From: a virus
DNA: 23,265 nucleotides
Strand: one strand, 5' to 3'
IMG/VR virus record: IMGVR_UViG_3300042879_001061
Coordinates: 1-23,265 of that record
Shown here one piece after another: positions 27 through 22,291 of this stretch. How positions within the stretch are numbered: position 1 is the stretch's first letter; each line of letters opens with the position of its first letter. A program made the translations under genes and the position numbers. The notes under the pieces were generated by a model. That model was not told the DNA's origin. It ran no database searches and saw only the letters and a list, made by a program, of their open reading frames with translations.

Positions 27-695
27 TCACCTAGCCGAGGCCACCGCCTTCTCCAGGCTGCTGCGCAGGTAATCGCCGAAGCGACGGTCGATCACCTTCT
101 GCCCGATCTCGGCCATGGGGAACATCTTGCCGTAGCGCGCACGGGGCACAGCGATGAACAGCGGGCGCAGTTTCCCCTTGGCCGTCCGCTGGTACACACC
201 GGGAGGCCTCCCAGCGCCGTCTGGACGCCCCAGGAAGACGCTGTTCTTCCCCTTCGTGGCTATCTGGCTCTCGATGCGCTTCAGAGTGGCCAAGGAGACG
301 TTTCCAGCAGCCGTCAGGTTGATCGCTGCTGGCACGAGCACCGACCCCTTCGGCATCGTCGCCTCAGCCTTGGCCAGATAGCGCCGCTCGACCGGCTTCT
401 GCCCACGATCACCACCGCTGATCAACGTGCGCAGGTAACGGGCGCGGCGACGCTCGGCGTACACCTCGGCCTCGAGGTTGCGCTTGCTCGACCTGTTGAC
501 TAGGAACGCGCGCTGGGTGAAGGCGACCGGGTTCTTGAAGTACTGGCGAGTGGCGCCGTTCATCGCCGTGCGCATGTCAAACGCCGTGGCGTTCAACGCC
601 TGGCTGATGGCGAACGGAAGCTGCTTGGTCATGGTGTCGGTCCACCGGATGGCGGTGGGCAACTCCGACTTGATGTCCAGGGTGAGGGTGGCCAT
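27..695 (-). CDS. putative phage tail-completion protein (gpZ/gp10-like)
   Basis: 222-residue basic protein starting at ATG 695. The N-terminal third (LPFAISQALNATAFDMRTAM) resembles the start of lambda gpZ-like minor tail or neck proteins, where a short amphipathic helix with AIN/ALN precedes a basic stretch. The middle is very Arg/Lys-rich (AERRRARYLRTL). The C-terminus (FGDYLRSSLEKAV) looks like the closing helix of this class. Such proteins act at the head-tail joint or tail terminator during assembly. It is the only structural-type gene left of the replication genes, lying just downstream of the repeat block and the primase gene on the same strand. The family call rests on general resemblance, so other virion or DNA-binding roles are possible. 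Confidence 0.45.
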   Translation of the reverse strand: MATLTLDIKSELPTAIRWTDTMTKQLPFAISQALNATAFDMRTAMNGATRQYFKNPVAFTQRAFLVNRSSKRNLEAEVYAERRRARYLRTLISGGDRGQKPVERRYLAKAEATMPKGSVLVPAAINLTAAGNVSLATLKRIESQIATKGKNSVFLGRPDGAGRPPGVYQRTAKGKLRPLFIAVPRARYGKMFPMAEIGQKVIDRRFGDYLRSSLEKAVASAR

Positions 696-712
696 GGCTT
701 CACGGTAAGAGC

Positions 713-987
713 GTTACGGGCGTAACAGGGCGTAACAAGATCCGTAACATCGAGACCCTCGCCAGCGCAGTGGATCTGCCCCTGTTGTTACGTTGTTACT
801 TCTTTATAGAGAAATATATATATATATAAGAGAGAGGAGGGAGGAGGAGGGATGTCTCTCTCTCTCTCTTTATATGTGTGGCTATGTTTTGGAAAAAAGC
901 GTAACAGCGTAACAACTGGGGCAAATCCCTTGCGCCGCAAAGTGTTACGCTGTAACAAGCACCCGTTACAAATCACTGATCTGTAAC
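713..987. repeat. CGTAACA iteron array, candidate replication origin
   Basis: Twelve copies of GTAAC or its complement GTTAC lie at 713, 722, 732, 744, 787, 795, 901, 909, 944, 952, 965 and 983. In one orientation the consensus is CGTAACA(A/G). Three pairs have exactly 8 bp start-to-start spacing (787/795, 901/909, 944/952). The pairs 713/722 and 944/952 are inverted (GTTAC-GGGC-GTAAC and GTTAC-GCT-GTAAC). About half a copy would be expected by chance in this length. The copies form two clusters flanking an AT-rich and purine-rich core, and the last two run into the 3' end of the primase-helicase gene. Phage P4 alpha protein, a comparable primase-helicase, binds short repeats at its origin. 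An origin or partition site is therefore the best guess, and a regulatory operator array is the alternative. Confidence 0.6.
811..876. other. AT-rich tract plus purine-rich hairpin
   Basis: An alternating AT run (about 814-828) passes into an uninterrupted purine run (828-852) and then a CT repeat (855-871). Bases 824-836 can pair with 862-875 with one bulged T at 871, leaving a loop of about 25 nt rich in GGAGG. The loop strand also has four G-runs able to form a two-layer quadruplex. The position between two clusters of iterons fits a DNA-unwinding element, but this is inference. An open frame across this stretch on the minus strand is low-complexity and not considered a gene. Confidence 0.5.
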
Positions 988-3461
988 GCCACAGCCCTGG
1001 ATAGGGTGCCTGCGCCCTTGAAACGCATCGGCTCGGCCTTGCTCGCGCCCTTCAACCTGGAGAGCAGCGTGCCCCAGCTATGCGACCACTGCGTATCGCG
1101 GAGCATGGTGGCGATGGCCTCTGCGGTGTTGCTGACGAACAGCGTCCCGGCTTCTGGGTCGACCTTTAAGCCATGGCGTTCGAGGGCGTTGCGAGCCGCT
1201 GATGGCTGCACGTCGATATCCGTTGCGTGATGCATGGCGATCTCGACCAGCTCGCCCACGGCGCGGTTGCAGGTCTTCTCATCGGTCTCCACTCGGAGCT
1301 GGTACTGAAGGATCCGACGGATGCATCGCTGCTCATCAGGGATCTCAGTGGCTTGGCTGTATGGCTCCCAGTTGTTGGCCTTGATCAGGTTCCTAGCCTC
1401 ATCATCTGTTGGCACTTGCCGGGAGTACAGCGACCACGTTCCGGCCAAGAGGGTGCCGTACTGATCGCCTAGGCGCTGGGAATCGAAATGCTCAGCAGCG
1501 ACTCGAGTGAAGACTCGGATCGATTCACGAATCACCGGGATCAGCGAAACGGTGCGAGCGATGAGGCGGCGCCCTGTTTCTTGGTTGATGTAGTGGTCGA
1601 GGTCACGATCGAGGTCTTCCCAGTGCTTTATGCGCTCCTGCTTCGGTATTTCGGTTGGGCTGCGGAGGGTGAGCTGAGCGAAACGGCTGCGGTCGGCGCC
1701 TTGCTTGAGAGCGGTGGCGATGGAGGACATGAGGAACATCGAGCGGATGTTGAACCTGGTCACATCACCGCCTGGGCTGCCCTTGATCATGGTGGCGTGA
1801 GACTCACTAGACGCAACACGCGCCAAAGCGAGGATGTTCTGCATCCGCACCTGATCGGCCTTCTCATTCGATTCGGCCTCATCGAAGACGACCGGCAGGG
1901 CGTCGCATTTCAATGTCTGGCGCAGACCGGCTTCGGTGGTGTTGCCGGCAACGATGAGACCCATGTCGGCCAGCAATGGCGCGACATAGCGATCAAGGAT
2001 TGCCGACTTGCCCGAACCGGCGGATGCCGTTAGCCATGCGTGAGGGCGCCAGGGAAGGGCGCCACAGATCGGCGCAAGGGTGACCCACCCAGCGAGGAGT
2101 AGGCCAGACGCAGGCACCTCCCAGTGGAATCGCTCTGCCAGCTCCCAGATGATGAAAGCCTCGGTGTCGCTTAGTGGCTCGACGTTGGACGGACCAACCA
2201 GATCGGCCATGCGCTGGTAAAGGTATTGGCTATCGAATGGCTTGAGAACAGGCCTGCTTGCGCCGTTGACGATGAGGCGATCACCCAGGTGAAGCACGGT
2301 TCGCTTGTCATCCCACCATGCACCACGGCCGCGAACGCGATCCGGGTTGTATGGCGGCACCAACTCTGCCAATCGAAACAGCAGGTTGGCAGCTTTTACC
2401 CAGTCGACGTTGCCGCGATCGTTGGCTGCGAGTTGCTTCCAATAGTCGAGATTGGCCAGAGCAACAAGGTTGGTGCCCGTGTGCGAGCCACGGGTGATGC
2501 GGATCACCTGACCACTGCCGTGAGGCCGGTAGTAGTAGTTGTCACCCTCTTGGCCGAGGCAGGTGAAGTGGCCATTGGCTTCGAGTTCAGGCAGCTCGGG
2601 TTCGGCTTCGGGTTCCAGTTCTGGCAGGGGTTTGTCGACTGGTTGAAGCGACGCGGAGATGTTGGCCTTGATGTAGGCCGCGGCCTCCTCTGGCGTCCAG
2701 GTCGCGTCGGCCAGATCCCAACCTTCGGGCGCATCGGGTGGTGTAGCCACCATCTGCACGCGATCAACCGGCAGCCGTAGCAGCAGTTGTGCGAGGCGAT
2801 CCATGGCCTGCTGGCCAACGGCATCGGCATCAGGCCAAAGAATGATGCGGCGCCCGATAAGCGGCGACCAGTCGGCCTTGTCGATGGCTTTACAGCCTGA
2901 TGGCCAAGTGGTGACGACGGCCTTTTGGTAGAGCTTGGCGGCGGCGTCGGCGGCCTTCTCGCCCTCGACGATCAGCACGGTGCCGGTGCTTGAGAGCAGC
3001 TTGCTGAGGTTGAGCAACGGCCGTGGCGCTGGTGGCGCCTTCCATTCCCAGCGGCTATCGGACCACCAGAGCGGGCGGATCTTCTTTCCCGGGAAGCGGC
3101 AGACGATGAAGGTGTCGCTGTAGTGCCAGACATGCTCGGCACCTTTGGTGGGCGGCTCTGGGCGCTGCGGGGCAATGCCTAGGTGCTGCTCAACGCGCTG
3201 TGCGGCTTCCTTAAAGGTCCAGTTGGTGCGGCGCATTAACAGATCCATGCCGGTGCCACCGCCACCTGATTGATCTTTGCCACCGCATTTATTGCAGTAC
3301 CAGGATCCGGTGCCGTCTTGGTCATCGAAGCGATAGCGATCTTTGCCGCCGCATAACGGACAGGGCTGATGCTTGTCTGTGAGTTGCGTAGCTGATAGCC
3401 CTGCAAGGGCGCCAAGAATCGACGGCCATTGGCCGTTGGCGTGCTCAATGAGTTTGTTCAT
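966..3461 (-). CDS. primase-helicase (zinc-binding, Toprim, SF3/DUF927-like ATPase)
   Basis: 831-residue replication protein that should make primers and unwind DNA at the fork. The zinc-binding domain has C34-x2-C37 and C56-x2-C59 with the CPLCGGKDRYRF motif typical of P4-alpha-type primases. The Toprim domain shows VEGEK (E166) and PDAD (D211, D213). An acidic, proline-rich linker lies near 276-296. The C-terminal ATPase carries Walker A ASAGSGKS (K485) and Walker B VVFDEAE (D527, E528). The start ATG at 3461 overlaps the previous stop as ATGA, so expression is coupled to the upstream 90-residue gene. The stop lies inside the iteron array. Length and domain order match phage primase-helicases of the TOPRIM/DUF927 group. 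No key residue appears missing. Confidence 0.93.
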   Translation of the reverse strand: MNKLIEHANGQWPSILGALAGLSATQLTDKHQPCPLCGGKDRYRFDDQDGTGSWYCNKCGGKDQSGGGGTGMDLLMRRTNWTFKEAAQRVEQHLGIAPQRPEPPTKGAEHVWHYSDTFIVCRFPGKKIRPLWWSDSRWEWKAPPAPRPLLNLSKLLSSTGTVLIVEGEKAADAAAKLYQKAVVTTWPSGCKAIDKADWSPLIGRRIILWPDADAVGQQAMDRLAQLLLRLPVDRVQMVATPPDAPEGWDLADATWTPEEAAAYIKANISASLQPVDKPLPELEPEAEPELPELEANGHFTCLGQEGDNYYYRPHGSGQVIRITRGSHTGTNLVALANLDYWKQLAANDRGNVDWVKAANLLFRLAELVPPYNPDRVRGRGAWWDDKRTVLHLGDRLIVNGASRPVLKPFDSQYLYQRMADLVGPSNVEPLSDTEAFIIWELAERFHWEVPASGLLLAGWVTLAPICGALPWRPHAWLTASAGSGKSAILDRYVAPLLADMGLIVAGNTTEAGLRQTLKCDALPVVFDEAESNEKADQVRMQNILALARVASSESHATMIKGSPGGDVTRFNIRSMFLMSSIATALKQGADRSRFAQLTLRSPTEIPKQERIKHWEDLDRDLDHYINQETGRRLIARTVSLIPVIRESIRVFTRVAAEHFDSQRLGDQYGTLLAGTWSLYSRQVPTDDEARNLIKANNWEPYSQATEIPDEQRCIRRILQYQLRVETDEKTCNRAVGELVEIAMHHATDIDVQPSAARNALERHGLKVDPEAGTLFVSNTAEAIATMLRDTQWSHSWGTLLSRLKGASKAEPMRFKGAGTLSRAVALQISDL

Positions 3462-3730
3462 TTGTTGGTCTTGAGGACAAATTGCCGGACTGCTTCCTTC
3501 GAGTCTCGTTTCTCTTTGCGGCGAGCATCTGCGATCATCTGCAGACGTTCAGGCCAAAGGCGTTCAGCTTTTTCGAGCAATGATGCCTGCAGGGCGTGAT
3601 CGAGCTTGCTAATGCGTTCTAGCTCTTCTGGGTCGTTTTCACCTGTGAAGCAGTGATAGAGCAGCTCTGGCGTCAGCCATTTGTATAGGTCTGAGATGAA
3701 TCGATCGCGAACGCGATTTGGCCGGCTCAT
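3458..3730 (-). CDS. small helical protein of unknown function
   Basis: 90 residues from ATG 3730, a start chosen because it gives ATGA overlaps with both neighbours (RHH gene upstream, primase downstream). A longer frame to 3817 exists but would run deep into the RHH gene. The protein is charged and predicted helical, with a basic end (ADARRKEKRDSKEAV) and no Cys motif, signal peptide or membrane segment. I do not recognise a family. Coupling to the primase suggests a replication accessory role such as a loader or origin-binding partner, which is inference from position only. Confidence 0.75.
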   Translation of the reverse strand: MSRPNRVRDRFISDLYKWLTPELLYHCFTGENDPEELERISKLDHALQASLLEKAERLWPERLQMIADARRKEKRDSKEAVRQFVLKTNK

Positions 3731-3879
3731 TTTGTGGTCTTCTCCATAGCTGCATTGATGAGTTGCCTGACAAAGGCGGATCGAGAGAGCAGAGCGCCGG
3801 CCTGCTGATCCAGCCAAGCAATCTGGGCGGGCGGTAGATCGAGGGTGATGGTGCGGCGCTGCGGGCGCTTTGGCTGCAT
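3727..3879 (-). CDS. ribbon-helix-helix DNA-binding protein
   Basis: 50 residues from ATG 3879. After a basic arm (PKRPQRR) comes TITLDLPPAQIAWLDQQAG, which reads as the beta-strand and first helix of an Arc/CopG-type fold, then SRSAFVRQLINAAM as the second helix with the usual Ser-x2-x-hydrophobic-Val-Arg pattern. Such dimers bind short operators and often repress their own operon. It is the first gene of the leftward replication cassette, and nested CGCT/AGCG repeats begin 7 bp upstream. A longer frame reaches 4035, but that part overlaps the divergent nuclease gene and looks unstructured. Confidence 0.75.
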   Translation of the reverse strand: MQPKRPQRRTITLDLPPAQIAWLDQQAGALLSRSAFVRQLINAAMEKTTK

Positions 3880-3885
3880 GGGTTG

Positions 3886-3915
3886 CGCTGTGGTGTCGCT
3901 GGGGTTAGCGTAGCG
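3886..3915. promoter_or_regulatory. nested inverted repeat, candidate operator
   Basis: CGCT at 3886-3889 and 3897-3900 faces AGCG at 3907-3910 and 3912-3915, giving two nested dyads in the 59 bp between the divergent RHH and nuclease genes. Short, symmetric half-sites are what RHH repressors commonly bind. No convincing -10/-35 pair was found, so the promoters here remain unlocated. Confidence 0.35.
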
Positions 3916-3938
3916 TGGATTTTGGTCCTGCCAACCCC

Positions 3939-4682
3939 ATGCCAGCGTTTCGGTCACATCTCGAGGTACTTGTCGCCCAGGAGCTTGACCATCACGGGGT
4001 GAGCTGGGGCTACGAACGACCGGTGTCCCTGCCAAACCGGTTGCCGCTTCCTTATTTACCAGATTTCACCATCGACGATGCCAGCGAAGTGCTGGAACTT
4101 CCACGGTGGATTGAAGTCAAGCCGCAGCAATTTCTTTACGATTTGCGCGACTTGCTTGGTGTAACTCGACGGCACGGAGATCGATTCTCCGGCGAAGTAA
4201 TTAGAGGGGAAGTGACTGCAAAGGATCTGCGCGAGATGCTTCTGCAGGAACTTTGGAAGCCGAAGCGCTTGGCGGAATTGACTGGCGAGTCAGTCCTTGT
4301 AATTGGCACTGTTGGAGGCACTTCTTCATTGTCTGTAGAGATGTGTGCTGATTCGATTCGATTTAGCCGATCTCACCCATTCGTGAATTGGCTCGGCGTG
4401 CAGAAGGCGAAAGAACGTGAGCGCAAGAAATTGCAGTGGGAGGCCGAGGCGGCCGAGCGACAACGGTTGTGGCAGGAGCGGCAACAGCTTCAGTGCCAAG
4501 TAGCTGCTCGGCAACTGCAAGAAACCCTGCGTTTCAGGCATTTAGGTCCAACCAGATGGGCGCGTGCGTGTTTCGGCTGTAACGCATTTGTTCAAGCCGG
4601 CAGCGGCTCTCTCCGCAAAGTTTTGTTCACTGATGGCAGCCATCAATGGCGCGTGCTGTGTTCTAACTGCTGCCATCCATGA
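3939..4682 (+). CDS. PD-(D/E)XK nuclease with C-terminal zinc site
   Basis: 247 residues from ATG 3939; a GTG 24 bp earlier (3915) is an alternative start but falls in the operator-like repeats. The N-terminal domain has E9 in a helix, LPDF with D42, and IEVK with E59 and K61, the pattern of TnsA/Holliday-resolvase-like nucleases. Residues about 165-205 form a Glu/Arg/Gln-rich coiled coil. The end has C211-x2-C214 and C241-x2-C244, a probable zinc ribbon. It would cut or process DNA, but the substrate cannot be told. It stands alone on the plus strand among leftward replication genes, and its stop overlaps the VRR-NUC stop by 20 bp, so it may be a later insertion with its own promoter. TnsA-like describes the fold only; no transposon is implied. 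Confidence 0.7.
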   Translation: MPAFRSHLEVLVAQELDHHGVSWGYERPVSLPNRLPLPYLPDFTIDDASEVLELPRWIEVKPQQFLYDLRDLLGVTRRHGDRFSGEVIRGEVTAKDLREMLLQELWKPKRLAELTGESVLVIGTVGGTSSLSVEMCADSIRFSRSHPFVNWLGVQKAKERERKKLQWEAEAAERQRLWQERQQLQCQVAARQLQETLRFRHLGPTRWARACFGCNAFVQAGSGSLRKVLFTDGSHQWRVLCSNCCHP

Positions 4683-5022
4683 TGCGCACAGCATCAGAAA
4701 CTGAGCGCGCCACGCCAGCGATGCCCCCGGCTGTGCGGACCGCGCCTAGCCAAGCCTGCTGCGCTGGGGTTGTGCGGCCTGAGGTGGTCTTCACCTCGAT
4801 GCTGGTGAAGATGGCGACGCGCTGCCCGACCATCTCTGGTGTGATGGTGATGGTGCGCCAGCCGATCAGGTCTGCGGAGCCACGGGCGAGGCCGAACTGG
4901 ACGGGCCGGCCGGTGCGGGGATCAGGCAGGGTGCCGGTGTTGTTGCGGAATAGGCGGAGATCCTGCCGCGTACCAAGCGCCAAGCGGATGCGCTGCTGGA
5001 TGTCGGTCTCAGCGTTGGCCAC
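4663..5022 (-). CDS. VRR-NUC domain nuclease
   Basis: 119 residues from GTG 5022. It is a stand-alone VRR-NUC domain: E5 in helix 1, LFRNNTG, then FGLARGSADLIGW with D51, and SIEVKT with E76 and K78, followed by the conserved AQQAWLGAV helix. Phage members of this PD-(D/E)XK branch cut branched DNA such as Holliday junctions and often sit next to SF2 helicases. Here it overlaps the helicase gene by 14 bp, so the two are probably made together and used in fork or recombination processing. Length is normal for viral single-domain versions. Confidence 0.9.
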   Translation of the reverse strand: MANAETDIQQRIRLALGTRQDLRLFRNNTGTLPDPRTGRPVQFGLARGSADLIGWRTITITPEMVGQRVAIFTSIEVKTTSGRTTPAQQAWLGAVRTAGGIAGVARSVSDAVRIMDGSS

Positions 5023-6414: not shown

Positions 6415-7248
6415 ATGGAGAACGCCGACTATCACGCGCACCCTGCGATCTCAAAGTCGCATCTCGATCTCATCGCGCGTAGCCCGCTGCACTATTGGGC
6501 GCGCTACATCGACCCGAAGCGCGTCATTCCCGAGCCGACGCCAGCGATGCGCATCGGCAGCGCAGTCCACACCCATGTGCTCGAACTGCACAAATGGGAT
6601 ACCGACTACATCGTCGCCCCCGATGGCCTTGACCGCCGCACCAAGGCAGGTAAGGAAGCATGGGCAGCGTTTGAGGCTGAGGCCAACGGCCGCACCGTGC
6701 TGAGCCGAGAGGATGCTGATCTTGTCATGCACATGGGCAGAGCAGTGCTCGGCCATCCGGCTGCTGCATTGCTGCTTGGTATAGCCGGCGAGGCCGAGAC
6801 CACGCACATGTGGACGGAGCCGACCACTGGCCTTCAGTGCAAGTGCCGGCCTGATTGGATTACCGAGGATGGTGGCATCGTGGTGGATCTCAAGACCACC
6901 GAAGACGCAAGTCCGCGGGAGTTCCGCCGCAGCATTGCTAAGTGGCGGTATCACTGTCAGGCCGGGTTTTATGTCGCGGGACTTGAGGCTGCCTATGGGA
7001 AGCGCCCCTCTGGGTTCATCTTCATCGCAGTGGAGAAGAAGCCACCGTTCGCGGTTGGTGTCTATGCCGCTGATGAGCAGATGATTGAGCGCGGCTACGA
7101 AATAGCCATGCGCGATCTGCAGACGCTGGCCGAGTGCAAATCCAGTGGCCGTTGGCCTGCCTATAGCGATCGGATCGAACCGATCAGCTTGCCGGCATGG
7201 ATGACCGGCGAGGCCGCTACACAGACCACCGAGATCGAGATGTATTGA
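6415..7248 (+). CDS. RecE-like PD-(D/E)XK exonuclease (PDDEXK_12 type)
   Basis: 277 residues from ATG 6415. The N-terminus has the YHAHPAISKSHLDLIARSP motif with MRIGSAVHTHVLE, typical of phage exonuclease VIII-like proteins. The active site reads CRPDW (D147) and VVDLKTT (D158, K160), followed by the F-x-Q region (YHCQAGFYVAG). The enzyme should resect double-stranded ends to give single-stranded tails for the annealing protein encoded next. The stop TGA overlaps the next start as TGATG, which ties the pair together as a two-component recombinase. Length is close to that of other phage members. Confidence 0.88.
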   Translation: MENADYHAHPAISKSHLDLIARSPLHYWARYIDPKRVIPEPTPAMRIGSAVHTHVLELHKWDTDYIVAPDGLDRRTKAGKEAWAAFEAEANGRTVLSREDADLVMHMGRAVLGHPAAALLLGIAGEAETTHMWTEPTTGLQCKCRPDWITEDGGIVVDLKTTEDASPREFRRSIAKWRYHCQAGFYVAGLEAAYGKRPSGFIFIAVEKKPPFAVGVYAADEQMIERGYEIAMRDLQTLAECKSSGRWPAYSDRIEPISLPAWMTGEAATQTTEIEMY

Positions 7249-7895
7249 TGGAATCCACAGCACTCACCACCACCAGCACCGGCTCGGTGTTTAGCGGCAT
7301 CCAAGCCTTCGAGGATGCCCAGCGTATTGCCAAAGCCTTAGCCAGCAGCACGCTGATCCCGCCACAGTTTCAAGGCCAGCAAGGATTCGCCAACTGCCTG
7401 GTGGCGCTCGAGATCGCCAACCGAATGGGCATCAGTCCATTTCTGGCGATGCAACACCTCCATGTGATCCATGGCCGCCCATCGTGGAGCAGCAGCTTCA
7501 TCATCGCGATGGTGAACGGCTGCGGCCGATTCAGTCCACTGCGGTTTGAACTGAGCGGCAGCGGCGACAGCCTGGCCTGTTACGCGATCGCCAAGGATCT
7601 CGCCAGCGGGCAAGAGCTGAAGGGACCGACCATCACGATGGCGATGGCGAAGAAGGAAGGCTGGGCGACCAAGGCGGGCAGCAAGTGGCAGTCGATGCCC
7701 GAGCTCATGATCCGCTATCGCGCCGCAGCGTTCTGGGGTCGCCTGTATGCCAGTGATCTCTTGCTCGGAATGCAGAGCCAGGAGGAGGTGGTCGACATCC
7801 AGCCGGTGACCGTGAGCGATCAGGTCGCTGATCTCAACGCCGCCATCCCTGAGCCGGCACCTACACCGGAGCCTGAGAGCGATGAACTCTTCTGA
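7248..7895 (+). CDS. RecT-like single-strand annealing protein
   Basis: 215 residues from ATG 7248, the start that overlaps the exonuclease stop; the open frame extends 17 codons upstream but only as an exonuclease shadow. The core (ANCLVALEIANRMGISPF, then MQHLHVIHGRPSWSSSF, then KWQSMPELMIRYRAAAFW) matches phage proteins annotated as RecT-family recombinases. It would coat and anneal the single strands made by the exonuclease. Residues after about 185 are a Pro/Glu-rich disordered tail ending ESDELF, which looks like the acidic tip of bacterial SSB. The next gene overlaps its end by 14 bp. Confidence 0.82.
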   Translation: MESTALTTTSTGSVFSGIQAFEDAQRIAKALASSTLIPPQFQGQQGFANCLVALEIANRMGISPFLAMQHLHVIHGRPSWSSSFIIAMVNGCGRFSPLRFELSGSGDSLACYAIAKDLASGQELKGPTITMAMAKKEGWATKAGSKWQSMPELMIRYRAAAFWGRLYASDLLLGMQSQEEVVDIQPVTVSDQVADLNAAIPEPAPTPEPESDELF

Positions 7896-17840: not shown

Positions 17841-20800
17841 TTAGCCCTGCCGTCCATATCCGGTTGCACTCCATGTGAAGTTGCGGGTGACGGGACTACC
17901 GCCGGAGTTGAAAAAGCTGATCTGGAAGCCCGTTCCAGTCACGTTGGAGATCTGGAAGTAATCGCCGGCCTGCAGGTTTTGTGCCGTCACACCGACGCTG
18001 GGCAGATAGGCGTTTAGGCCGCCGATGCTGGCCGTCCCAGTGAAGAACGGGTAGGGAAAGGTCACGGCGGTGTTGGTGGTGCCGCTCGCTGCGGCGTTGC
18101 TCTGCTCGGTCCGGCGTTGGACGGTGGCAAGGTAGCCCAGCTCATCGACAAGGATGTTTTCGGCAACGTCGTTGCTGGTCAGCGTGGTGCGGAACTGGAA
18201 GCCACGGCCACGGAAGGTGCCATTGACGAACGGCTGCCATGCGTTCCAAGTCGGCGTGCCGCTCGGGTTGTCGGTGGTGCTGCGGAGTTCGAGGATGGCG
18301 TTCACCGCGTCGATCACGCCGCCGTCCCAATCGCTCCAGTCGTCCACTTCGGCTAGGCGGCTGTCGATCAGATCGCTAGGGAAATAGCCACGGGTGACGA
18401 AGTAGCGGCTGAAGTCGATGGAGAAAGTATTGCCGAAATCGACCGTGGTGGCGAAGTCGTAGGTGCCGGAAGACTGCACCGAACCCATCACGTCGAAGGT
18501 GGGCAGCAAATCCACATCAGGCACGTCATCCAGCAAGTCCGAGCCATCCAGCGTCAGGGCGTCAAACTCCTCGCTGTAGAAGGTATTGGTGCGCGTGCCT
18601 TGGAATGGTGGGGTGTCCTGATCTTCGCGGCGGTTGATCAGCGTGAGCGGTGCCAGCGTGTCGGGAAGGTCGATGATGATGCTGGTTTCGCTGGCGCTTT
18701 GGCGGCCTCCATCGTCCTCGAATTTGACCAGCACCTCACCTTCCACCAGCGGGATGATGGCCTCGGTCGCGCTACCGGATTTGGCGGGGATTAGATCAAC
18801 GCTGTTGCTCCAGCTCGCGCTGCCATCCGTCAGGTTGCTGTGGCGGATATGAATTTTGCCGCCGACTTTTACGTCGAGGTCTACGGTTTCGTCCCAGCGC
18901 AGGCGACCGGAGTTGGCGTTGATGGCCTCAAAGCTCAGGTTCTGGACGTTGCCGGGGACGGCGGTTTTGCCGACAAGTTGAAATTCAGCAGTGGCTATTG
19001 CACTTATTTTGTTGACATAGTTTGCCGCCGTAAGTTGAATGTATAAAGTGCCTGGACGTGTTTGCTTAATTTGAATTGAAGGTGACGTACTAACAATTTG
19101 CCTCCAATTATCGTTATCAATTCGATAATCAATTCGAAACTCACTAACCCTTTCACGGGGGCTTACCCAGCTCAAATCAAAACCAGAGAACACATTTTGT
19201 CCATCTTGGTAAAGGTATTCAGTGCCGGTAATGCTGGTGACTGCATCGGGTGGGTCGCTGAGGTTGCTGATGTCGCGGGTGGTCAGCGTGTTGTCGCTTT
19301 CGATCGCGTTGTAAATGCTGCTGTTGTATTGCAGGGCGGTGACGCCGTAGATGCCGTCGTCCGATTCAGCGACGTTGAGGACGCGGAATTGCTGGGATTC
19401 GATGTCGTCGGTTTGGATCAGCCAGATGGCGTTGGCGTTGGGTGCTTCGCTAAACGGGTTGCCGACCGTGATGGTGCGGTCGCTGATGGATTGGATCGGG
19501 CGGAGTTCGACGTTGCCGCTGGGCAGGATGACCGAAATACGCGGGTTACTTGCCAGATTGACGGATAGGTTGCTGCTGGAGTCAACCGTGATGGTGGTTG
19601 TGGTGGCAGAACTGACGCGACCACTGCGGCGTGTGCCAGCCTTCATCGGGTCGGCAACATCAATCACCATCCCAGGGCGCAGGATGATGCCGCTGTCGAT
19701 TGACACCGAGAAGGTGACGGTTTCGGTCAGGTTTTGTTCGCTAAGGAGTGCCCACTTACCAGCGCGATGGGCTTGACCTTGGCTGTAACAACCGAGGGCT
19801 TTGATGTCTTTGTTGATGATGCCGTATTTGGCTACGGCGTCTGCATCTTCGATGTACTCGTACTCAACTTCGCCCAAAGTGTCGTAAGACTGCCAAGCAA
19901 CAGTTGCAACGCTGTGGCGTGCCTTCTGGGATGATCCGCTGTAATTGAAAACGCCATCAACAACATTGCTTGGTCCGAGCAGATATTGCGAGTCGGTCGG
20001 TTTGTCTTGCTGGAGCACCAGCGAGCCGGCGCCGTAATACGCGATGCCACGGAATAAGCTGGTCATCTCTTGGATGACGTTATAAACCTCGTCGCGGCTG
20101 TTGATCAGTAGGTTGCAGGAGAAACGGGGCTCCAAGCCGCCTTTGCCGTCGTCAACCAACTCGTTGCAATACTGGCTAATCGCGTAAAAGTCATAGCGAT
20201 CCAAATTGCTGGCTGGTATTCCGGCGCCGTAACGAGTGCTGGTCAATAAATCCCACAGGCACCAAGCTGGATCGTTGCACCAAGTCGCTGCGCCAAAGGT
20301 GCCGTTCCAAACGCCGGCGTAGGTTACGCGCCCTATATGTGTAGTGGTATCAACGGTTGCGTTGCTGGGCAACTGTATTTTTGCTCCACGAATTAGATAT
20401 TTACGCTTGGGGATATTATTGAAGTTGCGCGAGTCAAACCGCAGGCCAACAAGGGCGCTGTTTGGATAACGCAATTTTTCGTCAATAATTTCTGTATAGC
20501 TAGACCAAAAAGTATCGTTTTGGCGCTTGGCGGAGCTTTCGTCGCCACTTGTTCTCGTGATCCGGATGTCAACGGGGAATGCACCATTAAGCGCCAGCAT
20601 GTAATCACGTTGATATAGATTTCCTGTTTTGCCGCTAATCGTATCGCTAATGACCTCTGTGTAACCGCCGGAGTTGTATTGGGTTTCAATTTTTAGCGAT
20701 ACGCTGTGGCCAACAATGTCGCCGTCGTCCTGCAGGATCTGTAATGCTGGCACGTTAATTGTTACGCGCACACGATCAACCGCAGTATTTGTAACTTGAC

Positions 20801-21602
20801 GGGTGATGGGTGTTGATGCAAAAAGCTGGACGCTAACACCGTTTTCGGATTCTGTTGCGTTTAAGTCGGCACCAATAACAGTTTGATTCTGCGTGCCGTT
20901 TCTGGTAACAACTTGATAACCGCGAAAGTTTTTATTTCCTGCTGCGTCTTCAATAGGGGTGTCATCTAAGTAAATACTTTTGGCGCCGTTATCTAGACCT
21001 TGAATTTCACCTTCGCAAAGAAGGTCTAGAACACTTGCGTACTGGGTGGACTGCAGCGAATCATCTGCCTCATAAGGCGTCCTTCTGCCGCCGCCACCGC
21101 CCTTGCCACCACCGCCACCACCGCCACCAGCACCAGCGATACCAAGGCCAAGACCGGCATTGTGTACACGGATTCCGCCAGCGATAAAGGTGTGATGACC
21201 TTCGACGGTCAGGTTGTAGACCGTGCCATTGCAAAACTCGGTCTTGCCGACGATGGGGCGCAGGTGACCGTTGGCGTCAACGAGGCAGTCGTCGGAGCCA
21301 AGCGTGTCGATTTCGACGAAGGCGTTGAACTGGTTGAGGACCCAATGGTTCGGGGTGGCATCAAGATGCTGGCCGCCCCAGAGCGTGTAACGGATGACGC
21401 GCTCGCCTTCGTGCTCGTGGACTTTGAGGATTTTGGCTTCGTGGACTTCGCCGGTGTGATCAAAGCTCAGAACCAGATCGCCCGATTGCAGTTCATCAAT
21501 TCGGCGTTGGCCGTTTGGAACATTAACGAGCGTATGACCAAGGAAGCAGCCTCCACCGCCACCGCCACCAGAACCTTGGAGTAGAGCTGTTCTTTTTGTC
21601 AT
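17841..21602 (-). CDS. J: lambda gpJ-like tail tip (host specificity) protein with Hint insertion
   Basis: 1253 residues from ATG 21602 (TGATG junction with gpI). After an 18-residue Gly-rich head comes a Hint domain (19-148, described separately) and a second Gly-rich stretch to about 172. The body then follows lambda gpJ: DDSLQSTQYASVLDLLCEGEIQGL, WSSYTEIIDEKLRYPNSALVGLRFDS, then AWCLWDLLTSTRYGAG, and GCYSQGQAHRAGKWAL. Fibronectin-III-like modules follow at about 740-930, and the C-terminal quarter is beta-rich. gpJ forms the tail tip and contacts the receptor. Length is close to lambda J (about 1130) plus the insertion. Parts of the gene near 19000-19200 and 20340-21060 are more AT-rich than the rest. 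Confidence 0.95.
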   Translation of the reverse strand: MTKRTALLQGSGGGGGGGCFLGHTLVNVPNGQRRIDELQSGDLVLSFDHTGEVHEAKILKVHEHEGERVIRYTLWGGQHLDATPNHWVLNQFNAFVEIDTLGSDDCLVDANGHLRPIVGKTEFCNGTVYNLTVEGHHTFIAGGIRVHNAGLGLGIAGAGGGGGGGGKGGGGGRRTPYEADDSLQSTQYASVLDLLCEGEIQGLDNGAKSIYLDDTPIEDAAGNKNFRGYQVVTRNGTQNQTVIGADLNATESENGVSVQLFASTPITRQVTNTAVDRVRVTINVPALQILQDDGDIVGHSVSLKIETQYNSGGYTEVISDTISGKTGNLYQRDYMLALNGAFPVDIRITRTSGDESSAKRQNDTFWSSYTEIIDEKLRYPNSALVGLRFDSRNFNNIPKRKYLIRGAKIQLPSNATVDTTTHIGRVTYAGVWNGTFGAATWCNDPAWCLWDLLTSTRYGAGIPASNLDRYDFYAISQYCNELVDDGKGGLEPRFSCNLLINSRDEVYNVIQEMTSLFRGIAYYGAGSLVLQQDKPTDSQYLLGPSNVVDGVFNYSGSSQKARHSVATVAWQSYDTLGEVEYEYIEDADAVAKYGIINKDIKALGCYSQGQAHRAGKWALLSEQNLTETVTFSVSIDSGIILRPGMVIDVADPMKAGTRRSGRVSSATTTTITVDSSSNLSVNLASNPRISVILPSGNVELRPIQSISDRTITVGNPFSEAPNANAIWLIQTDDIESQQFRVLNVAESDDGIYGVTALQYNSSIYNAIESDNTLTTRDISNLSDPPDAVTSITGTEYLYQDGQNVFSGFDLSWVSPRERVSEFRIDYRIDNDNWRQIVSTSPSIQIKQTRPGTLYIQLTAANYVNKISAIATAEFQLVGKTAVPGNVQNLSFEAINANSGRLRWDETVDLDVKVGGKIHIRHSNLTDGSASWSNSVDLIPAKSGSATEAIIPLVEGEVLVKFEDDGGRQSASETSIIIDLPDTLAPLTLINRREDQDTPPFQGTRTNTFYSEEFDALTLDGSDLLDDVPDVDLLPTFDVMGSVQSSGTYDFATTVDFGNTFSIDFSRYFVTRGYFPSDLIDSRLAEVDDWSDWDGGVIDAVNAILELRSTTDNPSGTPTWNAWQPFVNGTFRGRGFQFRTTLTSNDVAENILVDELGYLATVQRRTEQSNAAASGTTNTAVTFPYPFFTGTASIGGLNAYLPSVGVTAQNLQAGDYFQISNVTGTGFQISFFNSGGSPVTRNFTWSATGYGRQG
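21159..21548 (-). other. Hint (mini-intein / BIL-type) domain within gpJ
   Basis: Codons 19-148 of the J gene, 130 residues. Block A: C19-FLGHTLVNVPNG followed by RRIDELQSGDLVLSFD. Block B: ATPNHWVL with T83 and H86. Block F: VYNLTVEGHHTFIAGG. Block G: R-V-H147-N148. There is no homing endonuclease. All catalytic positions of an N-terminal Cys intein are present, yet the next residue is A149 instead of Ser, Thr or Cys. That is the hallmark of type-A bacterial intein-like domains, which can cleave or splice by an altered route. If ligated, the flanking glycine runs would join as GGGGGGG-AGLGLG. Confidence 0.85.
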
Positions 21603-22291
21603 CAACCCTTGCTCGCAAATACTTCGCCAGTGGACTTACCAGCACTGCCGCTGAACTCCACATCAAGGCCGCTAGAAATTACAGCGGAACCCACAAATAA
21701 TCGACCGTAGGCAATCGGTACGGGCAATCCTTGCTTGGATGTGTTCACAATGCCGCTAAAACTAAACGATTCCAGCTTTGCCGCCTCACGTCCGCGCTCT
21801 AGCGGCGATGTTGATTGCACTGGAGATGGGGAAATGGCCTGTGCAACGCCACCAATCAGCATGGATGCACCAATTAGCCCCAAAGATGTTGAAATTGTTG
21901 CCGCCGCTGCGCCGGAAAAAAGACCTGCACCAAGACCCAAAAAACCTGCGCCAGCGGGACCTGCAACAATCGCCAAAGCAACAAAACCGATTCCCGCCAA
22001 AATCTGTCCGGCACCATCGCCGGCACCAGCAATTACAGGCGTGATGCTAAAAACTTCGCGCTCACTAAATGGAGCCGCAATCAACACGGCGTTTTGTTCG
22101 GTGACCTTTTCTTTTCCGATTGTTACGCGATAGCCAACACCGTCCTGTTCGCTATCAATCAGCCACTTTTCAAGACCGGGAAAATTGACGCAAAGTGCCT
22201 TGAGCGCCTGCGCTGGCGTGTCGGCTTCAAATTGGAAGCGGCACTGACCCAGCTTTTTGCGGAGTGCGCCGTAGACCTTAACGACTTTCAT
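21602..22291 (-). CDS. I: lambda gpI-like tail assembly protein
   Basis: 229 residues from ATG 22291. KVVKVYGALRKKLGQCRFQFEADTPAQALKALCVNFPG is the ubiquitin-like opening of gpI proteins. A long Gly/Ala-rich hydrophobic region (about 95-165, with AGIGFVALAIVAGPAGAGFLG) is typical of this family and may insert in a membrane or form a glycine-rich core. gpI helps tail tip assembly and is not kept in lambda virions. It overlaps gpK by 14 bp and gpJ by 1 bp, matching lambda order L-K-I-J. Confidence 0.9.
   Translation of the reverse strand: MKVVKVYGALRKKLGQCRFQFEADTPAQALKALCVNFPGLEKWLIDSEQDGVGYRVTIGKEKVTEQNAVLIAAPFSEREVFSITPVIAGAGDGAGQILAGIGFVALAIVAGPAGAGFLGLGAGLFSGAAAATISTSLGLIGASMLIGGVAQAISPSPVQSTSPLERGREAAKLESFSFSGIVNTSKQGLPVPIAYGRLFVGSAVISSGLDVEFSGSAGKSTGEVFASKG

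Follow-up and report, generated by a model that had tools for sequence, protein, structure and literature searches.

The window analysed here is a 23,265-nucleotide stretch of viral DNA, positions 1 to 23,265 of IMG/VR record IMGVR_UViG_3300042879_001061. Its first bases (positions 1-30, without strand) lie just short of a cos-like genome end of the phage group, as judged from the contig ends of relatives. Next comes a minor tail protein gene (27-695, minus strand; PHROG 1924, E = 3.7e-47) and, beyond it, an array of iterons (713-987, without strand) that is a candidate replication origin. The array lies 5′ of the tail gene and 3′ of a minus-strand gene for a TOPRIM-type primase-helicase of 831 residues (966-3461), overlapping the last codons of the latter. 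Upstream of the primase-helicase are two further minus-strand genes, which encode a 91-residue protein (3458-3733) and an RHH protein of the primase operon (3727-4035), the true start of which is uncertain. In addition, the window contains a recombination pair composed of Exonuclease VIII-like (DUF3799) and RecT-like annealing genes (6415-7895). A J-like tail tip protein (17841-21605, minus strand) has, following a run of glycines close to its N-terminus, a Hint- or intein-like segment; the matches of this segment to the Pfam Hint (E = 1.8e-6) and intein splicing (E = 4.8e-6) families both fall short of the cut-off.

The array is composed of 12 near-palindromic sites of the YGTWACR type, whose invariant part is a five-base core, GTAAC or GTTAC, found exactly at 713, 722, 732, 744, 787, 795, 901, 909, 944, 952, 965 and 983. 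A preliminary description of this DNA had counted twelve copies of CGTAACA in 275 bp; the count of twelve holds for the core, but just seven of the 12 sites are exact CGTAACA, with three sites one base off and two sites two bases off. Exact CGTAACA occurs 10 times in the window against 1.4 expected, and seven of these occurrences fall inside the array. Across 300 dinucleotide-preserving shuffles of the window, the number of GTWAC cores in any 275-bp stretch reached a maximum of 5 (mean 2.1), compared with the 12 observed. The geometry first described is borne out, as three pairs of sites are spaced by exactly 8 bp (787/795, 901/909 and 944/952), inverted pairs are present (713/722, 944/952 and 965/983), and the sites form two clusters of six around an AT-rich core. 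The arm distal to the primase (713-799) holds the cores from 713 to 795, and the proximal arm (901-987), which overlaps the primase stop region, holds those from 901 to 983; the two arms are mutually inverted, with 744-799 and 901-956 being 75% complementary. The core between them (800-899) contains TA and GA/TC tracts and is a proposed melting region, with 64% A+T at 801-895 in a phage of roughly 60% G+C. The placement of the array beside the primase gene also stands, with the correction that it adjoins the gene on its downstream (3′) side. An Rfam search returned no match, and our literature search found no published account of this repeat. The primase-proximal arm additionally contains a hairpin-like CCCTTGCGCCGCAAGGG element (927-943), possibly a terminator, which recurs near the genome end of relatives (contig ends L020, L021, L026 and L028).

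The primase-helicase matches the PHROG 35358 DNA primase family (E = 8.5e-135) and has an N-terminal primase zinc ribbon (Zn_Ribbon_Prim, PF08273; E = 1.5e-14 in the window protein), which is present in 40 of 40 members. A DnaG/T7-like TOPRIM domain is indicated by the best PDB fold matches, which are to T7 gp4 and DnaG primases (probability 1.00, E about 1e-3), and by a Pfam Toprim match that falls short of the Pfam cut-off (E = 0.0015). The helicase contains an invariant Walker A motif, GSGKS, at residues 482-486. No D5_N or Pox_D5 (SF3 helicase) match was obtained in the window protein or its relatives, DUF5906 was matched weakly in Acinetobacter phage Acjo_20, and the full-length AF2 model is poor in the helicase region, with low confidence at residues 466-598. 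The C-terminal domain (about residues 700-831; 969-1364, minus strand) is modelled as helices and β-hairpins with a pLDDT of 85, and we propose it as the DNA-reading domain since its sequence diverges specifically between loci of different repeat class. Foldseek found no significant match for this domain in the PDB (best E = 0.84), and a sequence search of the PDB gave nothing useful. At the predicted tip of one β-hairpin is R813 (codon 1023-1025, minus strand), which directly precedes an invariant phenylalanine and whose identity predicts the repeat class, as described below.

A search for the repeat next to homologous primase genes, suggested in the preliminary description, revealed arrays with the same spacing in nearly all of more than 125 relatives scored, out of 550 found, and a repeat sequence that depends on lineage. 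The first scan of viral contigs yielded 80 relatives of the primase; a second scan, with a profile of the C-terminal domain, yielded 35 loci outside the set used to find the residue-repeat rule, and a further held-out set comprised 14. In nearly all relatives for which downstream DNA is present, about 12 sites occupy the same positions relative to the end of the primase gene, and the AT-richest 60 bp of their arrays have a median GC of 0.37, compared with 0.61 for the locus. By lineage, the repeat reads YGTWACR, YGTTAGG, YGTGAGG, CGTMAGA or YGTAAGA, or CGTTMGG, giving at least five classes, of which YGTGAGG is carried by one contig at all twelve sites and CGTTMGG is the form found in the isolate Synechococcus phage S-H1. 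The positions are therefore kept while almost all sites change in concert. Site orientation is fixed in the non-palindromic classes. Since the GTWAC core reads the same on both strands apart from its centre base, the orientation at a given position flips freely from one relative to another within the window's clade. In L151, an array at about 4420-4730 is a hybrid, with a left arm of GTGAGA that matches the Y residue of its primase and a right arm of GTTAC/GTAAC; it arose either by natural recombination or through chimeric assembly.

The class of the repeat follows the residue at position 813 of the primase-helicase. Arginine accompanies GTWAC, tryptophan accompanies repeats ending in GG (GTNAGG or CGTTMGG) and tyrosine accompanies GTNAGA, a rule that fits 109 of 112 classed loci. 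Two of the three exceptions have histidine (L072 and L137), and the third is Bdellovibrio phage phi1422, whose alignment row is misaligned by one and which has arginine by eye. Six loci are unclassed, L122, L134, L151 and L152 for mixed or ambiguous counts and L040 and L083 for too few sites. For held-out scoring, repeats were called de novo and then classed; the rule fits 30 of the 31 classed loci among the 35 from the second scan and 13 of 14 in the further set, where the misfit, L220, has arginine with a mixed array. Among 840 full-length aligned columns, position 813 is the most informative about class, with an MI/Hjoint of 0.75 compared with 0.33 for the next column. Consistently, close primases with different repeats differ mostly in their last ~130 residues; L063 and L069, for example, are 90% identical overall and differ at 24-45% of positions in that region. 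Distant relatives extend the association, as phi1422 (33% identical primase, R) has 12 GGTAAC sites 3′ of the primase, Acjo_20 (35%, R) has about 11 GTAAC sites 5′ of it, and a betaproteobacterial MAG contig (47%, R) has GTSAC sites. KLER1-1, with arginine and TGTNAGC, breaks the rule; ZRG1 and MQ-4, which have other residues at 813 and arrays kilobases away, were counted neither for nor against it. In viral contigs, relatives of phi1422, KLER1-1 and Acjo_20 were limited to phi1422 itself and L184, a 34% relative with no recognised array nearby, and phages of roughly 90 kb with related helicases have no array adjoining the gene. Acjo_20 (L166) shares the helicase and the C-terminal half, and its N-terminal half contains PriCT_2 without a zinc ribbon or TOPRIM match, a domain make-up that suggests exchange of the primase domain with retention of the reader. 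Together, these comparisons indicate that residue 813 is a main determinant of repeat class. It is not the sole one, because histidine occurs with two classes (GTAAC in L137 and GTNAGA in L072), the centre base of the repeat varies independently of residue 813, and KLER1-1 and L220 depart from the rule.

The covariation shows that the primase-helicase and the array evolve together. What the array does is a separate matter, and it is possible, though we consider it unlikely, that it is an accessory element read by the primase-helicase, such as a copy-number control or replication enhancer resembling P4 crr, with replication truly starting at another site, for instance close to the genome end. 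Relative L022 continues past the window start with CGGGTCCTTCC. Contig ends were compared in L006, L014, L018, L020, L024, L026, L028 and L030, and in L130, L139 and L150. In seven contigs the sequence stops exactly 40 nt beyond a CGGGTCC(Y)TCC motif, which lies 3′ of the primase at a distance of about 1.0-1.5 kb; the three Y-class contigs (L130, L139 and L150) stop 13 nt after CGGGTCC, and L030 runs past the motif into apparent Illumina adapter. This pattern looks like a cos-type genome end near the origin. The GC-skew analysis put forward in the preliminary description, when run in relatives, placed the minimum at this end and not at the array: in three close relatives it falls within about 60-180 bp of the cos-like end, 0.7-1.1 kb from the array, and S-H1, the phage of L076 and phi1422 have no skew extremum at the array. 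We therefore dropped GC skew as origin evidence. A minimum about 1 kb from the array would suit a start of replication at the genome end, but genome organisation alone predicts skew there. Moreover, seven contigs of 35-45 kb contain no second array and no such paired-site pattern elsewhere, and two iteron arms around an AT-rich core are the standard layout of an origin (PMC6092414).

Slightly less probable is that the residue-repeat association reflects hitchhiking only, with the array and the gene end recombining together and residue 813 making no direct contact with the repeat. Synonymous divergence is raised at the gene end in class-switch pairs, as between L063 and L069, where fourfold sites give 0.68 compared with about 0.3, so the C-terminal domain and the array have probably been exchanged as one block. 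Linkage alone could therefore produce part of the association, and the hybrid array of L151 is also in keeping with such exchange. However, under linkage many C-terminal residues should be informative and no one residue should stand out across distant clades, whereas a single column exceeds the next more than twofold over 840 columns, and arginine, tryptophan and tyrosine recur with their repeats in separate clades. A control tree of the primase that left out the C-terminal domain requires at least 10 changes of repeat class and at least 11 of residue 813. All five independent pairs on supported branches show a joint change of residue and repeat, with none against (sign test p = 0.06, limited by n = 5 pairs).

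Our comparisons also bear on which protein of the cassette reads the array, for which the preliminary description had offered the primase-helicase, the RHH protein and the small protein upstream of the primase as candidates. RHH proteins are able to bind short repeats in either orientation, and 96-101 of 118 loci have an RHH-like reading frame upstream of the primase, so the array could serve the RHH protein as its operator or centromere, in the manner of omega-type heptads, and control transcription or partition. This is very improbable given that L063 and L074 have identical RHH cores and different arrays (GTWAC and GTNAGA, respectively), while L005, one of three loci with divergent RHH proteins (L005-L007), has an RHH protein very different from that of the window, yet the same array class and spacing. 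In addition, the best RHH column has an MI/Hjoint of 0.22, compared with 0.93 for position 813 over the same loci, and the genes examined include no recognisable ParA/ParM-type partner. With no covariation with repeat class, the RHH protein was ruled out as reader of the variable half of the repeat; it is probably a repressor of the primase operon. The 91-residue protein (given as 90 residues at first) was ruled out as well, being found with both GTWAC and GTNAGA arrays and missing from many loci. The idea that the array regulates late transcription of the tail gene that follows it, prompted by its intergenic position 5′ of that gene, is scarcely credible, since the gene after the array varies between relatives, the Acjo_20 array lies 5′ of the primase instead, the repeat sequence tracks a primase residue, and no sigma-70 promoter-like match was found within 600-4200.

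Because neither the RHH protein nor the 91-residue protein tracks the repeat, the protein that reads the array is likely to be the primase-helicase, for which the array would serve as origin. The array is thus very probably the replication origin of this phage, a reading that draws on conserved architecture and residue-repeat covariation; of the three candidates first named, the primase-helicase is the one that survives. From these sequence comparisons, we infer that the primase-helicase binds the array and that replication starts there. In the mechanism we propose, every site would be a docking point for the C-terminal domain, whose hairpin tip would read the variable half (arginine reading AC, tryptophan GG and tyrosine AGA), the GT half being constant. 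Helicase rings assembled on both arms would then melt the AT-rich core, and the TOPRIM domain would prime both forks. The RHH protein would repress the operon and not read the iterons.

By analogy, this system would work like the P4 α/ori and PICI origins. P4 α has been described as binding origin repeats through a winged-helix C-terminal domain before unwinding and priming (PMC4234260). The window protein shares with it a zinc ribbon and TOPRIM primase fused to a helicase, as well as short origin repeats, and to this extent the initial P4 α-type label was apt. Unlike P4 ori/crr, however, no second, crr-like array was found in the seven contigs, the window repeat is different, the helicase could belong to SF3 but gave no D5_N or Pox_D5 match, and the C-terminal domain, in which a winged helix is no more than possible, has no significant structural match in the PDB; we therefore do not file the protein as a P4 α member. 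Tested PICI primase-rep-ori modules have, 3′ of the initiator, an AT-rich region with a set of iterons on either side (PMC6092414), and the window has the same layout 3′ of its primase-helicase gene. In contrast to PICI and SaPI satellites, the window encodes J-like tail tip, minor tail and lysis proteins, and is therefore from a phage and not a satellite. We found no description of a repeat-residue code for PICI or SaPI modules.

Two further systems share parts of this arrangement. In PLE RepA/ori and ICP1 Odn, an origin and the DNA-binding domain of its initiator are exchanged together as a matched unit, and selection acts on the specificity of the origin; in the PLE case, an origin-directed nuclease selects for escape (PMC8263062). 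The array and C-terminal domain described here resemble the PLE modules in that origin and reader domain are exchanged as a module, whereas the PLE iterons are three semi-palindromic repeats of ~30 bp read by RepA and the window has about twelve 7-bp sites and a primase-helicase. The archaeal plasmid pRN1 (ORF56/ORF904) has an operon of a small repressor or copy-control protein and a primase-helicase, with an essential origin region directly downstream (PMC4234260). This gene order and the downstream position of the origin resemble those proposed for the window, but the pRN1 origin is a stem-loop without iterons and the pRN1 primase belongs to a type other than TOPRIM. The window system would belong to a known kind, an iteron origin with an initiator primase-helicase, to which it adds an apparent one-residue specificity code.

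We lean, with some reserve, towards a model in which one hairpin residue of the initiator primase-helicase sets the iteron that is required. This code would have been switched about ten times, with the residue and almost all of the dozen sites changing together, leaving the origins of related phages mutually incompatible. Possible drivers include origin-directed nucleases, satellites and superinfection. The phage group would provide a natural set of origin-initiator pairs that keep the same site positions and differ only in their recognition code, and origin specificity switching would be open to direct testing by single-residue swaps. Origins in many environmental phage contigs could also be found from the primase sequence, and the code would predict which co-infecting phages can share origins.
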